A stretch of DNA of 64,000 nucleotides from NCBI GenBank assembly GCA_009773355.1, contig WRPG01000022.1:1-64000 (forward strand). Reading direction: 5' to 3'. Made by a program: the position numbers and the translations under genes. Within the stretch, counting starts at the first letter, position 1; each line of letters starts with the position of its first letter. Of the stretch, positions 6,278 through 63,797 are shown in pieces. Source of the stretch: Limisphaerales bacterium. GTDB taxonomy: Bacteria; Verrucomicrobiota; Verrucomicrobiia; Limisphaerales; SXTU01. The notes beneath the pieces were generated by a model. That model saw nothing but the letters and a program-made list of their open reading frames with translations. It made no database searches and was not told where the DNA came from.

Positions 6278-6284
6278 GGGTGGC

Positions 6285-6351
6285 GGAGCTCAGGTGTCCA
6301 ACCTGCGCGGTGCGCGCGGAGCCAGACGCGCAGGTTGGACACCTGCGCTCC
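6285..6351. repeat. Dispersed palindrome, GGAGCGC family (paired arms)
   Basis: Two inverted arms lie at 6285-6309 and 6328-6351. Each contains a CAGGTGTCCAACCTG-type core bordered by GGAGC and GCG, and each arm is itself an imperfect palindrome. It fills the gap between the DUF1844 gene and the ABC exporter. Near-identical paired arms occur at 24291-24357. Confidence 0.88.
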
Positions 6352-6358
6352 CGCGCGC

Positions 6359-11070: not shown

Positions 11071-11757
11071 TCAGTAGTGCCTCGGCGGCGGGGTTTTTAC
11101 GAACGTCGTCTCGCGCAGGTAAATCGGCTCCAGCTTCTCGCCCGGTTGGAAGTCGCTGCGCTGGGAGGCCAGCCGTCCGAGTTCGCCAGCGGCAGGCGAG
11201 AGCAATCTGGCTCCGGCGAACGGACACTTCGCGTCCGGGCTGACGAGCAATTCGCCGCCCACTGCAAGCGCTTCGACGGCCTCGCGTTTAAGCAGTCGCA
11301 GCGGAGCCGCCTCGTTCCATCCCTCGGCCGTGAGTTCGTAGCTGGCCGAGTAGAACTCGCCCCGCAGCGCATCAATCGCCACCGCGACGCGTCCGGTCAG
11401 CCCAGCCGACCGCGCCGTGGCCGCCAGCACTTCCGCGCTGCTGATGCCGAGCAGCTTCACTCCCAAGGCAAGCTGCCAGCCTTGCGCAACCGCGATGGCC
11501 GAACGCACGCCGGTGTAAGAGCCAGGCCCCAGCCCAACAGCGATGCACTCGACTTGCCCGCGCTCAAGACCAGCCGCGCGCAATGCCGACTCAACCAGCT
11601 CGAACGGCCCCGGCGTGATGCCTTCCGCCTCGGCGAGGCCGAGCACGCGCGCGTCCTGTGCCGGCGATTTGCAATCGCCGTCGGTGGCAGCCGGCACGGC
11701 CTCGACGACCGCCACGCCACGCCGCGCGGAGGAGAATTCAAGCGCCAAAATCTTCAT
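11071..11757 (-). CDS. tsaB: tRNA t6A biosynthesis protein TsaB
   Basis: 228 residues, an ASKHA-fold partner of TsaD needed for threonylcarbamoyladenosine at tRNA position 37. Family marks are MKILALEFSS at the start and GLGPGSYTGVRSAIAVAQGW (near 78). Residues 21-34 read ATDGDCKSPAQD and derive from a palindromic repeat (11658-11697) lying in frame near the N terminus. The start overlaps the tsaE end by 20 bases. tsaD is not in the window. Confidence 0.94.
   Translation of the reverse strand: MKILALEFSSARRGVAVVEAVPAATDGDCKSPAQDARVLGLAEAEGITPGPFELVESALRAAGLERGQVECIAVGLGPGSYTGVRSAIAVAQGWQLALGVKLLGISSAEVLAATARSAGLTGRVAVAIDALRGEFYSASYELTAEGWNEAAPLRLLKREAVEALAVGGELLVSPDAKCPFAGARLLSPAAGELGRLASQRSDFQPGEKLEPIYLRETTFVKTPPPRHY
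11658..11697. repeat. In-frame palindromic repeat within tsaB (GTGCCGGCG family)
   Basis: Fixed borders GTGCCGGCG and CGCCGT surround the palindromic core ATTTGCAAT (11658-11681). An inverted CCGGCAC closes the element at 11691-11697. The same borders with different palindromic cores occur at 27575-27673. It contributes about 14 residues to TsaB without breaking the frame. Confidence 0.85.
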
Positions 11758-12196
11758 ACTCGATGCGCCGCCGCGTCTCGCTTTCGGAAGTGAACTTCAC
11801 CCAGCGCAACCGTCCACCGGGGCTTTGAACTTTGAACTTTGAACTTTGAACTTCATCCCACCAGCGCTCCGCCCATTCCACCACCGTCACGCCGCGCGGG
11901 GTGAAGAAGTATTCGTCCAGCCCGGCACCAACGATTTGCGCGCGGGTGTCGAGGCGGTAGAGGTCGAGGTGGAAGAGCGGCAGGCTTCCGCCGGTGTATT
12001 CGTTGACGAGCGCAAAGGTCGGCGAGGCGACGCGGCCCGTGAAGCCCAGCCCGCGCGCAAGGCCCTTCACGAGCTGTGTCTTGCCCGCGCCGAGGTCGCC
12101 GCAGAGCGCGAGCGTCCAGCCGGGGGCGGCCTCCCGCGCCCACGCCTCGCCCAGCGCGGCGGTTTCCTCCGGCGAATTGGTGACGATTTCCTTCAA
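11738..12196 (-). CDS. tsaE: tRNA t6A biosynthesis ATPase TsaE
   Basis: 152 residues, the P-loop ATPase of the TsaBDE complex. Visible are Walker A GDLGAGKTQLVKGLARGLG (about 33-51), SPTFALVNEY, HLDLYRL and VVEWAER. The start is taken as TTG at 12196, because it overlaps the thiL stop by four bases and gives the family N terminus KEIVTNSPEETAALG; the frame is open further upstream. Residues 115-125 (EVQSSKFKVQS) come from a CTTTGAA heptamer array inside the gene, beyond the conserved motifs. Confidence 0.9.
   Translation of the reverse strand: MKEIVTNSPEETAALGEAWAREAAPGWTLALCGDLGAGKTQLVKGLARGLGFTGRVASPTFALVNEYTGGSLPLFHLDLYRLDTRAQIVGAGLDEYFFTPRGVTVVEWAERWWDEVQSSKFKVQSPGGRLRWVKFTSESETRRRIEYEDFGA
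11823..11853 (-). repeat. CTTTGAA heptamer array within tsaE
   Basis: On the plus strand CTTTGAA is repeated exactly four times (11823-11850) with three further bases. It encodes the SSKFKVQS peptide of TsaE on the minus strand. A related array at 63773-63797 encodes the same peptide at the end of an unrelated methyltransferase. Confidence 0.92.
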
Positions 12197-13128
12197 CTGG
12201 TGAAGTGCTCGTAGCCGCGCAGGTTGAACTCCCGCAGGCCGCGCTCGTCGCGGAGGCGCAGGCCGGAGGCGGCAGTGATCTTGCCGACGCACGAGAGCTT
12301 CACGTCGGGGAACTGCGCCTTCCACGCGTCCAGCAGCGGCACGGCGGTCCGGCTGGCGACGGTGAAGAGCAGCTCAAAATCCTCGCCGTCGGTCAACGCG
12401 GCGAGCAGCGGCGGCTTGGCGGAGGACTCCGCCCGGGCCTGGAGTTTTGCGGCGCGGCTGACAGGAACGGCGCTCGACAGCAGTTCCGCGCCGACACCGC
12501 TGGCATCGAGGATGTGCCGCAGGTCGCCGGCCAGGCCGTCGCTCAGGTCAATCATCGCGTGGACGGTGAAGCGCTCGGCCAGCCAGCGCGCCTCGGCCAA
12601 TCGCGGCTCGAAGTCGAGGTGCCGCCCCGCCAGCGAACCGCCCAGCGTGCCGGTGACAAAGATGGCGTCACCGACCTTCGCGCCGGAGCGGAGCACCTGC
12701 CGGCTGCGCGGCACGGTGCCGAGCAGCGCGATGGAGAGCAGCAGCCGCCCGGGGTTCGTGGTGGTCTCGCCGCCGACGATGGCGATGCCGTGCTTCCGTG
12801 CGAGCGCGTTCATGCCGGCGTAGATGGTCTCGACGCGTGCGAGGTCGAACTCCTGCGGCAGCGCGAGCGTGACGACGGCGTGCGTGGGCGTGCCAGCCAT
12901 CGCGGCGACGTCGCTGAGGCAGCGGGCGAGCGCCTTGTGCCCGACCTTTTCCGGCGGTGCGTCGGCGGAGAAGTGAACGCCCTCGACCACGGCATCGGTC
13001 TTGAAGAGCAGCAGGTGATGCGGCAGGCCGAGGTCGAGCACCGCGCAGTCATCGCCCGCGCCGGCCAGCACGGAATCATGCGTGGGCAGCGTGGCCTTGA
13101 GCCGGGCGATGAGGTCGAACTCTTTCAC
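12193..13128 (-). CDS. thiL: Thiamine-monophosphate kinase
   Basis: 311 residues. ThiL phosphorylates thiamine monophosphate to the diphosphate cofactor. Family features are GAGDDCAVLD (about 24-33), KTDAVVEGVHFS, VGHKALARCLSDVAAMAGTP, IVGGETT, MIDLSDGLAGDL and LTDGEDFELLFTV, which together hold the Mg2+/ATP sites. Its start overlaps the CPBP gene stop by four bases and its stop overlaps the proposed tsaE start, so it sits in a tightly coupled operon. Confidence 0.95.
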   Translation of the reverse strand: MKEFDLIARLKATLPTHDSVLAGAGDDCAVLDLGLPHHLLLFKTDAVVEGVHFSADAPPEKVGHKALARCLSDVAAMAGTPTHAVVTLALPQEFDLARVETIYAGMNALARKHGIAIVGGETTTNPGRLLLSIALLGTVPRSRQVLRSGAKVGDAIFVTGTLGGSLAGRHLDFEPRLAEARWLAERFTVHAMIDLSDGLAGDLRHILDASGVGAELLSSAVPVSRAAKLQARAESSAKPPLLAALTDGEDFELLFTVASRTAVPLLDAWKAQFPDVKLSCVGKITAASGLRLRDERGLREFNLRGYEHFTS

Positions 13129-24244: not shown

Positions 24245-24290
24245 AGGCGCGGAAAAGTAGGAGTGAACTTCCGCGCTGGCAAGCGCGGTG

Positions 24291-24357
24291 GGAGCGCAGG
24301 TGTCCAACCTGCGTGTCGGGCTTCGGCTGCAACGCGCAGGTTGGACACCTGCGCTCC
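24291..24357. repeat. Dispersed palindrome, GGAGCGC family (paired arms)
   Basis: Arm 24291-24313 and the inverted arm 24334-24357 match each other. Both contain the core AGGTGTCCAACCT between the borders GGAGCGC and GCG. The element separates the divergent trxB and oxidoreductase genes and is nearly identical to that at 6285-6351. Confidence 0.9.
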
Positions 24358-24397
24358 GCACGCTTGCAATTCTCCCTCGCTCCGAAATGCTCCCGCC

Positions 24398-27574: not shown

Positions 27575-27673
27575 GTGCCGGCGGCTTCCAGCCGCCGTGT
27601 TGCGGGTGGATAGCTTGAAGCCGTCTTCTTAGTTCCGCACACGATGGACGGCGACTGGAAGTCGCCGGCACGG
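27575..27673. repeat. Dispersed palindrome pair, GTGCCGGCG family
   Basis: Left arm: GTGCCGGCG, core GCTTCCAGC, CGCCGT. The inverted right arm (27650-27673) has the same borders with core ACTTCCAGT. Each core is palindromic except at its middle. It lies between the convergent SGNH and BatA-like genes. Confidence 0.88.
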
Positions 27674-51700: not shown

Positions 51701-52464
51701 ACACCGACACCCGCGTGCGTCTCCTGAGCGCCGGCCCGAAGGAGGACGTGGTGGCCAAGAGCGACATCGCCAAGCTGCGCGTGAGCGAATTGAGCGTGAT
51801 GGCCGAGGGCCTGGAGCAGATGCCCGACGCCGACTTCCGCAACCTCATCGCCTACATCTTGAACCCGCCCGGCGACAAAGCGCCGTTCAGTTGGAAGAAC
51901 GACGCCGGGAGCGCAGGTGTCCAACCTGCGTCAGCTCCGAAAGCCGGCAAGGCTCCCGAGAAGAAATCCAGCACCGGCAGCCCCGAACCGCGGCTTGGAC
52001 AGCCGCGCTCCGACGCGCGCGTGGACTGGGAATCCGTCTCCCTTTGGAACCCCGAGTGGCGCGTCGTCGCGCCCGAGTTCGAGGGCACGCCGGCCAAGCT
52101 CCTCGACTTTGCCGGGAAGCAAAACGTCCTGCTCACACATCCCTTCGACCGCGAGAAACCCGCCGCCCTCGAACGCGAGCTGACCATCCCCGCCGGCCAG
52201 AAGACCACGCTGAAACTCCTCGTCGCCGCCCACGAGAAAGGCGATTGGGAACTCCGCGTCCTCGCCAACGGCAAGCCGCTCCTCAAGCAGCTCATCGCCC
52301 GCCAAGGCACCGAAACTTGGCAACCCGTGACCGTGGACCTCACCCCGCTCGCCGGGCGGAAGGTCACGCTCCGGCTGGAGAACGCGGCGAACGGGTGGAG
52401 CTGGGAGTTCGGCTACTGGAGCATCATTGAAGTGAAGTCCGAGCGAGTGGCGGCGGCACGGTGA
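48757..52464 (+). CDS. Large secreted dehydrogenase/HEAT/cytochrome c protein (PVC type)
   Basis: 1235 residues. Order: signal peptide (about 1-28), membrane-bound dehydrogenase-type propeller (about 55-430), HEAT-like helical region (about 430-900), c-type cytochrome domain with CFTCHK at C919 (CxxCH haem site) continuing GEGADIGPDLTGVGRSSLDA, then a repeat-derived linker (about 1051-1086) and a galactose-binding-like C-terminal domain. Proteins of this layout are numerous in planctomycetes and verrucomicrobia and are thought to oxidise sugars or alcohols at the cell surface. ATG 48757 is chosen over TTG 48712. Confidence 0.9.
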   Translation: MNPFRPAALAVATSLVFTATLSAADYKVPQKNLGFPTYKNAPPGKQMSGQHAPATTPALSPEEARKRFTLPPGFEIRLFASEPEVVNPVAMTWDERGRLWVVELYEYPLGAKPGAKGRDRIKILEDTDGDGRADKVTVFAEGFSLATGILLGHGGVFLGQAPHLLFLQDTNAPAGAGIGAFQKANKQTVLLKGFGLEDRHELLNGFTWGPDGQLYMTHGVFTRANVSSPERPGEPAVRMDAAVARYNVQTRKFEVYADGTSNPWGVDFDRAGNAFLSACVIDHMFHMAPGGIYVRQGGQPMFPYAYQMLPSIVDHRHKMAAYAGIQVYLGDQWPAEHYGTIFCGNLHDNAVHQDTLTPNGSTFKSSFKQDFVRANDGWFMPVSQQVGPDGALWVMDWYDKYPCYQNARADPEGVDREHGRIWRVVHTGGEKGKKVPSRPEVNMDLAKLTSAQLVERLAHANVWQRKMAQRVLSERNDDRIKAPLEKLFTDGATLEARLTSLWTLHSAGLLKLPGDLLRTAANDKDPAIRTWTARLIGESRIGTRMHMALLKQLAADTEPTVRLAVATACRQFTSGSLTVNTPVSLTGAVTGQPANFVQPIIESLLHASTDPKDLTIGHMIWMASEPLVARGGSFAYELLNKEGVRKTALAGSFAYKSMRRVCDLQNPVQLDAALDFIGGLPATDALLPFALNGLVDGQKGKALKPNKPTDAVMQRLLASPREDVVRFARQLGALWGDAGAMQASLALVNDAKAPLDERLKAAQTARQLKNDAARDALLKAITPGNPEPLVLEAIAGLSQLGADTTAEALFAQWKNFSPAARRTAAETLASRARWASQLLSELEQKRILASDIPAATIRTLTRSEADFGMLAKRATAVFGRVRDANADKLKLIAAKKSMILGAKGQPDLKAGYEVAKKTCFTCHKLHGEGADIGPDLTGVGRSSLDALLANIIDPNQIIGAGYEMVEITTKDDRSVSGRMVEHTDTRVRLLSAGPKEDVVAKSDIAKLRVSELSVMAEGLEQMPDADFRNLIAYILNPPGDKAPFSWKNDAGSAGVQPASAPKAGKAPEKKSSTGSPEPRLGQPRSDARVDWESVSLWNPEWRVVAPEFEGTPAKLLDFAGKQNVLLTHPFDREKPAALERELTIPAGQKTTLKLLVAAHEKGDWELRVLANGKPLLKQLIARQGTETWQPVTVDLTPLAGRKVTLRLENAANGWSWEFGYWSIIEVKSERVAAAR
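51907..52012. repeat. In-frame dispersed palindrome arms within the cytochrome gene
   Basis: The left arm at 51907-51930 has GGAGCGC, core AGGTGTCCAACCT, GCG. An inverted arm at about 51987-52011 has the variant core GGCTGTCCAAGCC between the same borders. The 55 bases between them and both arms are translated in frame, giving SAGVQPASAPKAG...EPRLGQPRSDAR. Confidence 0.8.
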
Positions 52465-52484: not shown

Positions 52485-52586
52485 AAAGCGGTGCTGAAAG
52501 CCACCGCAGTCCAGACGCTTCGCGAGTCCGATGGCCGCTGGTGGTCGCGCTAGCGTTTGGACTGCGGTGGCTTTCAGCACCGCTTT
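52485..52586. repeat. 29-bp perfect inverted repeat, AAAGCGG family
   Basis: The 29-bp arm at 52485-52513 (beginning AAAGCGGTGCTGAAAGCC) is repeated exactly inverted at 52558-52586, with a 44-base loop. It starts 21 bp past the cytochrome gene stop. The same family occurs at 25564-25708 with a different core in one arm. Confidence 0.93.
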
Positions 52587-63188: not shown

Positions 63189-63797
63189 ATGAGCACCACC
63201 GAGTGGGAGGCGCACTACCAACGCAACGAAACGCCCTGGGACAAGGGTGAACCATCGCCCGGGCTGGTGGACTGGCTGGCGACGCACCCCGACGCGCCGC
63301 GCGGCACGGTGCTGGTGCCGGGTTGCGGGCTGGGACATGACGTGCGCGCATGGGCGGCGGCGGGTTTTCGGGCGACGGGTTTTGACATCGCGCCGAGCGC
63401 GGTGGAGCGGGCGCGGGCAGCGGGAATGCCGCCGGGGACGGAGTTCCGGCTGGGGGATTTCCTCGTGGACGAGCCGCACGAGTCCTTCGACTGGGTGTTC
63501 GAGCACACCTGTTTCTGCGCCATCCAGCCGGACCGGCGCGAGGACTACGTGCGCGCGGTGCTGCGCTGGCTCAAACCGGGCGGGCATTACCTCGCGGTGA
63601 ACTATTTCATCCCGGACAAGGAAGGCCCGCCCTTCGGCGTGGACCGCGAGGAAATCTGGGCGCGGTTCTCACCGCACTTCGAGCTGCTCGAAGAGTGGAC
63701 GCCGCGCTCATATCCGAACCGCACCGGGCTGGAGCGGATGTTCCTTTGGCGAAGCCGATGCGAAGTTCCGAGTTCAAAGTTCAAGGTTCAAAGTTGA
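63189..63797 (+). CDS. TPMT-family methyltransferase
   Basis: 202 residues. Family features are WEAHYQRNETPWDKGEPSPG at the start, VLVPGCGLGHDVRAWAAAGF (SAM motif), FDIAPSAVERARA, and CFCAIQPDRREDYVRAVLRW. Thiopurine-methyltransferase relatives detoxify small thiols, selenium or tellurium compounds. The last residues CEVPSSKFKVQS come from a heptamer repeat (63773-63797), and the stop codon lies in it. Confidence 0.9.
   Translation: MSTTEWEAHYQRNETPWDKGEPSPGLVDWLATHPDAPRGTVLVPGCGLGHDVRAWAAAGFRATGFDIAPSAVERARAAGMPPGTEFRLGDFLVDEPHESFDWVFEHTCFCAIQPDRREDYVRAVLRWLKPGGHYLAVNYFIPDKEGPPFGVDREEIWARFSPHFELLEEWTPRSYPNRTGLERMFLWRSRCEVPSSKFKVQS

Follow-up and report, generated by a model that had tools for sequence, protein, structure and literature searches.

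An in-frame remnant of a GTGCC-tagged palindromic element in tsaB, and the family to which it belongs in a Limisphaerales genus

The 64,000-nt stretch of DNA analysed here (the window) carries on its minus strand an intact tsaB encoding 228 aa (11071–11757), identified by NCBIfam model TIGR03725 (118 bits against a cut-off of 69) and interrupted in frame by a palindromic repeat. tsaB is an essential tRNA-modification gene; the next gene upstream on the same strand, tsaE (11738–12205, start approximate; PF02367/TIGR00150), also belongs to the t6A pathway. An Rfam search of the window returned one tRNA and nothing else, and neither Rfam nor Pfam matched an intron or intein family there. Elsewhere in the window, tsaE contains a heptamer run (CTTTGAACTTTGAACTTTGAAC; 11823–11854), translated in frame as VQSSKFKVQS, that recurs inverted at the opposite end of the window (63762–63793), and a 35-nt inverted repeat, 97% complementary with 32 nt between its arms, lies at 52485–52586.

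Read on the plus strand, the repeat in tsaB spans 40 nt (11658–11697; GTGCCGGCGATTTGCAATCGCC-GTCGGTGGCAG-CCGGCAC), exactly the interval in which the first-pass annotation had seen a palindrome read in frame inside tsaB. It opens with an intact 22-nt arm, GTGCC-GGCGATT-TGC-AATCGCC (11658–11679, plus strand; compared with the consensus of 79 two-armed copies described below), whose hairpin has a 7-bp stem—8 bp counting the closing C-G pair 11662/11680—and a 3-nt TGC loop; all six reading frames of the arm are open. From the opposite arm, the final 7 nt are left (GTGCCGG on the minus strand; 11691–11697) and the rest is deleted, as seen by comparison with L032 and L034 in two congeneric genomes, G002 and G007 (G000 denotes the genome of the window, G001–G010 the other members of the genus). 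Since a 70-nt unit stands at the same place in G002, the minus-strand feature represents 40 of ~70 nt, with the middle of the element gone. The palindrome does belong to a repeat family, as had been proposed, yet it is a deleted remnant rather than a whole element. The AGGC/AGGA repeat that flanks the unit is only suggestive of a target duplication.

Alignments with nine congeners (DNA and protein) and with named relatives set the net insert at 45 nt (11656–11700, minus strand; ends uncertain by 1–4 nt), or 15 residues (AVPAATDGDCKSPAQ; residues ~20–34) relative to the empty site, slightly more than the roughly 14 residues first estimated. The AlphaFold model of TsaB (mean pLDDT 90, pTM 0.87), whose best PDB matches are TsaB/YeaZ, places residues 20–36 in a loop connecting strands 12–19 and 37–45, with low confidence locally (pLDDT ~64 in block 21–30; most other blocks >90). 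The model thereby bears out the predicted position after the first beta strands and puts the insert in the loop between strands 2 and 3.

The tsaB site is empty in seven congeners (G001, G004, G005, G006, G008, G009, and G010), providing the vacant sister sites that had been named beforehand as proof of insertion. It is filled in G002 and G007 by an in-frame insertion of 75 nt, which adds 25 residues at one shared codon, and the 15 extra residues of G000 fall at that codon too. G002 keeps the 70-nt unit within its net insertion of 75 nt, and G007 keeps the length with a decayed right arm; relative to G002, G000 lacks 30 nt, a stretch covering the larger part of one arm and some of the interior, with the frame kept. 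Conservation of the same residues in distant TsaB proteins had been named as the observation that would speak against insertion; the 15-residue insert is absent from all 18 TsaB proteins of named relatives (MAGs mostly labelled Verrucomicrobia subdivision 3 or Limisphaerales). The interiors of the G002 and G007 copies are 0.62 identical, exceeding the value for G007 in each of 28 comparisons with paralogues. A TsaB tree and a 28-block concatenation left the backbone unresolved and did not group G000, G002, and G007 together, so that a single insertion requires several losses or gene exchange; the same turn may instead have received insertions repeatedly.

The tsaB remnant is one of many copies. 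Its core (GGCGATTTGCAATCGCC) has 182 matches at ≤2 mismatches across the 6.16-Mb genome of 162 contigs (89 forward, 93 reverse; one palindromic site may be counted on both strands), against zero for the control pattern read backwards. Among the matches listed, we collected 96 copies from G000, a set that favours well-kept arms, and found two facing arms in 79 of them. The element follows the plan CCCGTGCC-hairpin-variable interior-hairpin-GGCACGGG over ~70 or 96 nt; in the 79 two-armed copies, the arm consensus is CCCGTGCC-GGCGRYT-TSC-ARYCGCC-G(TC), followed by the interior and then the inverse. Measured from GTGCC to GGCAC, units form a short class of 54–75 nt (mostly 69–72) and a long class of 93–102 nt (96 nt in 28 of 35). 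Interiors of paralogues in the same orientation are 42–49% identical. The arms are near-invariant except at the R-Y pairs and the loop (TGC or TCC). Both variable pairs are Watson-Crick in 146 of 158 arms and only 27 of 79 units have an identical variable dinucleotide in both arms, arguing that arms stay complementary within themselves rather than to each other.

An exact search for the 22-nt arm found this GTGCC family in all but one of the eleven genomes of the genus: G000 has 161 matches, G007 65, G002 60, G003 46, G001 28, G004 18, G010 16, G009 12, G008 10, G005 5, and G006 none. The exact arm was absent from 17 genomes of other families of the order, and in a phylum sample of 388 genomes the window's own genome was the sole match (0/387 others). 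The window itself holds a second, complete copy of 97 nt with the TCC loop variant (27575–27671), with coding-like sequence on one side only. This copy follows a minus-strand coding stretch in an open frame (RAVPATSSRRPS...GGWKPPARE) and may extend the C-terminus of the preceding gene.

Calling coding flanks with a codon model that had long G000 ORFs as its training set, we found 33 of the 96 collected copies, besides that in tsaB, lying in frame between two coding flanks and free of stops; eight further copies have same-strand flanks in different frames. Thirty of the 33 sit well inside ORFs of 271–1582 aa, and 25 of these 30 host proteins have Pfam matches. Hosts include KsgA, LNT, glycosyltransferases, ApbE, an M20 peptidase, MFS and EamA transporters, MBOAT, DnaG, UvrB, a UvrD-type helicase, CheA, two protein kinases, a glycogen debranching enzyme, and a CCG/Fer4 iron-sulphur protein adjoining an FAD-binding one, among others. 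In at least nine hosts (e.g., KsgA, ApbE, the M20 peptidase, the UvrD-type helicase, and CheW), one domain match covers both sides of the insert. The short class is in frame more often than the long one (23/44 versus 6/35; p 0.002). Despite the absence of stops from every arm frame, the left arm is read in a biased manner (24 RAGDLQSP-type, 8 VPA-type, 1 PCRR-type; chi-square p 3e-6), which fits a scenario in which insertions survive when the residues they contribute are hydrophilic. Orthologue comparison showed many host-gene sites to be filled in some congeners and empty in others. The UvrB site is filled in G000, G004, and G007 and empty in G001; filled sites were likewise found for KsgA (G000, G002, G007), ApbE (G000, G003, G004, G007), the M20 peptidase (G000, G001, G002), and the debranching enzyme (G000, G002, G004, G007). 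In G005, the uvrB loop (L177) has a different, longer in-frame insert (RNATPAGRDSVEPHLERSEASAASYLAETV...).

What, then, is the sequence in tsaB? Very probably it is the remnant of a small non-autonomous mobile element that entered within the genus and was tolerated as a protein loop. A native TsaB loop, palindromic by chance and related to no repeat, would fit the RNA fold of the 76-nt site, which shows no extra stability over shuffles (z 0.29); this idea is nevertheless refuted by the 182 near-copies of the core against none in the control, the empty sites in seven congeners, and the full-length insertions in G002 and G007, and we consider it practically without chance. Removal of the insert before the protein is made or mature, by RNA processing or translational bypass, would leave TsaB normal and would explain tolerance in essential genes. 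We found no support for it, and it appears highly improbable: the internal copies keep the reading frame and lack stops, searches of the window matched no intron or intein family, and neither the 24:8:1 frame bias nor a 30-nt deletion that keeps the frame is expected if inserts are removed. The 45-nt insert would be translated as part of its host protein, TsaB, presumably under tolerance rather than benefit; nothing suggests a benefit to TsaB.

The stems themselves raise a separate issue. At orthologous intragenic sites, stem pair 9–17 was changed on both sides in 10 comparisons, on one side in 3, and on neither in 33 (Fisher 7e-8), and pair 10–16 in 15, 9, and 22, respectively (Fisher 7e-5), with the comparisons sharing species and so not fully independent. 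Stems therefore change on both sides at once, in a compensatory fashion, far more than independence predicts. The search pattern allows every R-Y combination at each side of the stem and so has no preference for paired changes over single ones. We give even chances to the view that it is the hairpins, rather than the peptide, that are actively kept in genes, either as functional nucleic-acid elements or as a record of hairpin-templated mutation. Selection on the hairpins as DNA or RNA (e.g., for mRNA stability, or gyrase or IHF binding), which would make the intragenic copies working elements, draws on the paired changes and on the fact that the double changes alter residues (RAGDLQSP to RAGGLQPP, VPATCSRR to VPAVCNRR), so that it is not the protein sequence that is being conserved. 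Moreover, across 15 orthologous filled pairs, all identical in unit length within the pair, arms are 0.89 identical against 0.77 for coding flanks and 0.65 for interiors, although the set comprises pairs with both arms at ≤4 mismatches, a filter that favours conserved arms and inflates the arm figure. Arms have, however, decayed at several occupied orthologous sites (tsaB of G007 and others), the species pairs are not independent, and G006 lives without any exact arm of the family; overall, we regard such selection as rather unlikely. Quasipalindrome correction, in which a mismatch is fixed by templated synthesis on the hairpin's other strand and the new base appears on both sides, is a process to which 7-bp stems with 3-nt loops are suited. 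It rests on the same paired-change counts, and the present data fit it and selection alike. At the ApbE site, G000, G003, and G004 share the locus-specific TGT loop on stems that differ from genome to genome and yet pair perfectly, which speaks against whole-arm replacement by another copy; yet the G003 interior is no closer to that of G000 (0.36) than a paralogue's would be, and the insertion there may differ from that of G000. Templated correction is put forward as a tentative possibility.

Other palindromes occupy some of the same places. The loop of G000 gene C104:15815 holds a GTGCC element in G000, a two-armed unit of another family (GGAGCGCGGACGCCCACGTCCGC...) in G007, other inserts in G002 and G005, and little or nothing in G001, G004, and G010. 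Units of this GGAGC type were also present at the C141:20846 site in G004 and at the C63:45507 site in G007, and near-matches number 75 in G000 and up to 206 in G010. In G010, a Y1_Tnp gene (L247; C18, 1333–2250) is flanked by GGAGC-tagged hairpins, so the GGAGC family looks like an ordinary RAYT/REP pair and, together with L247, is likely a REP/RAYT unit. Further Y1_Tnp genes (L061, L252, L256, and L253) are each flanked by a distinct hairpin of their own (e.g., CCTGGGGC-aac-GCCCCAGG). Within the window, two GGAGC-family arms (GGGAGCGCAGGTGTCCAACCTGCG ... CCGCGGCTTGGACAGCCGCGCTCC) lie between same-frame coding flanks (GSAGVQPAS...PRLGQPRS) at 51906–52011 on the plus strand, seemingly a second in-frame palindrome of a different family. 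Two-armed GGAGC-type units at 6283–6352 and 24290–24359 are 89% inverted copies of each other and do not have same-frame coding flanks on both sides. GTGCC elements also occur inside or beside GGAGC arms (G000:C74:20786–20940 [L015, L161], C44:11959, C2:44435, and C132:32427), as if one palindrome family had targeted the other.

In-frame palindrome insertion is an established phenomenon. The Rickettsia palindromic elements (RPEs) are summarised in a MITE review (PMC10969869), and Di Nocera et al. 2013 (PMC3733652) reported the like outside Rickettsia, in several phyla including the verrucomicrobium Opitutus terrae, so intragenic palindromes were already known in Verrucomicrobiota as well. The comparison with RPEs drawn at first pass captured the behaviour, and the family does differ from RPEs in its sequence features, but in-frame insertion outside Rickettsia is no novelty. 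Like RPEs (PMC10969869; RPE-4/RPE-6, PMC3733652), GTGCC elements are short multi-copy palindromes, many of them in frame in unrelated, often housekeeping genes (33/96 copies and tsaB), and no dedicated transposase is known for the CGTC class to which RPEs belong. The GTGCC family, in contrast, resides in another phylum and a GC-rich genome, is built as a two-hairpin unit with 3-nt loops, and carries no stem, loop, or tail of the CGTC families, judged by the published RPE-4/RPE-6 features. The intragenic GTAG REPs of O. terrae (PMC3733652) share the phylum, occur as single or paired hairpins in genes, add 20–30 residues when paired, and count DNA-repair genes among their hosts; species comparison and empty sites are new in the present study. 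A stem of 6–13 bp with a short loop and complementary variants, as in GTAG REPs, is seen here too (7-bp stem, 3-nt loop, covarying R-Y pairs). Unlike theirs, the outer tag is CCGTGCC, not GTAG or GTGG: in place of a terminal GTAG (or GYAG, GTRG, GTGG), the outer end reads GTGCC at 97–100% per position, usually as CCCGTGCC, and none of ten Y1_Tnp loci was a RAYT gene flanked by the same arms. With CGTC-tagged REPs (PMC3733652), which terminate in CGTC, TGTC, or CCTC, the family shares the lack of a known dedicated transposase. Of its 158 arms, 88 show CGTC at the inner end; there it faces inward, whereas CGTC REPs are mostly head-head dimers with an 8–9-bp stem starting A-T, a 4–5-nt loop, and a CCA tail, in contrast to a GGCGRYT stem starting G-C, a 3-nt loop (TGC or TCC), and no CCA tail. 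With neither a GTAG tag nor CGTC-family features, we filed it under neither REP class. Bacterial MITEs (15–30-bp inverted repeats, 70–300 bp, no ORF) are matched by the 22-nt arms, the lengths of mostly 69–72 or 95–97 nt, the inverted terminal sequences, and the want of coding capacity, yet each end of a GTGCC element is itself a hairpin, and neither a convincing target duplication nor, among the matches listed, a parent transposon was found. The literature searched held no description of the family, which appears undescribed; it is a new family that behaves like an RPE or an intragenic REP dimer.

How might it have moved? We propose that a REP-dimer or MITE-like element, its variable interior enclosed by a pair of inverted hairpin arms, entered tsaB within the genus at the turn between strands 2 and 3. 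As its net length was divisible by three and it contained no stop codon, tsaB stayed readable; an in-frame 30-nt deletion in the window's lineage would later have removed the bulk of one arm together with some interior sequence, and the extra residues would be tolerated because they form a flexible loop. Genome-wide spread would rely on a transposase, most likely a hairpin-recognising one of the Y1 type as for REPs, and insertions in genes would persist only where frame and protein loop permit. Over the 79 units, no convincing target-site duplication emerged (best z 3.3 among hundreds of offsets), and among the matches listed in G000 there was no parent transposon with the same ends; arm pairs 1.8–3.2 kb apart, considered as an autonomous partner, proved to be separate short elements. 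Y1_Tnp genes are present in G000 and seven congeners. GTGCC arms flank none of the ten loci closely examined in these incomplete assemblies; beside those loci stand other hairpins or none. The genomes with strong Y1_Tnp genes—G000, G002, G003, and G007—are the four richest in arms (161, 60, 46, and 65 versus 0–28), which is weak evidence coming from four genomes of one genus, and a RAYT as mobiliser was set aside, none of the strong genes being arm-flanked.

The GTGCC family, which can be followed through about thirty genes and eleven congeneric genomes, at sites either empty or filled and in copies either intact or decayed, offers a resource in which one can test how often proteins gain loops, whether such insertions are neutral, and what causes hairpin pairing. 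In some of the same loops, sister species have unrelated inserts, a second palindrome family among them, and these loops thereby stand out as places where a protein permits insertion. To us, the persistent pairing of hairpins that lie within genes is the point most worth explaining. Beyond Rickettsia, and in a GC-rich background, the family represents a further case of palindromes joining essential proteins.
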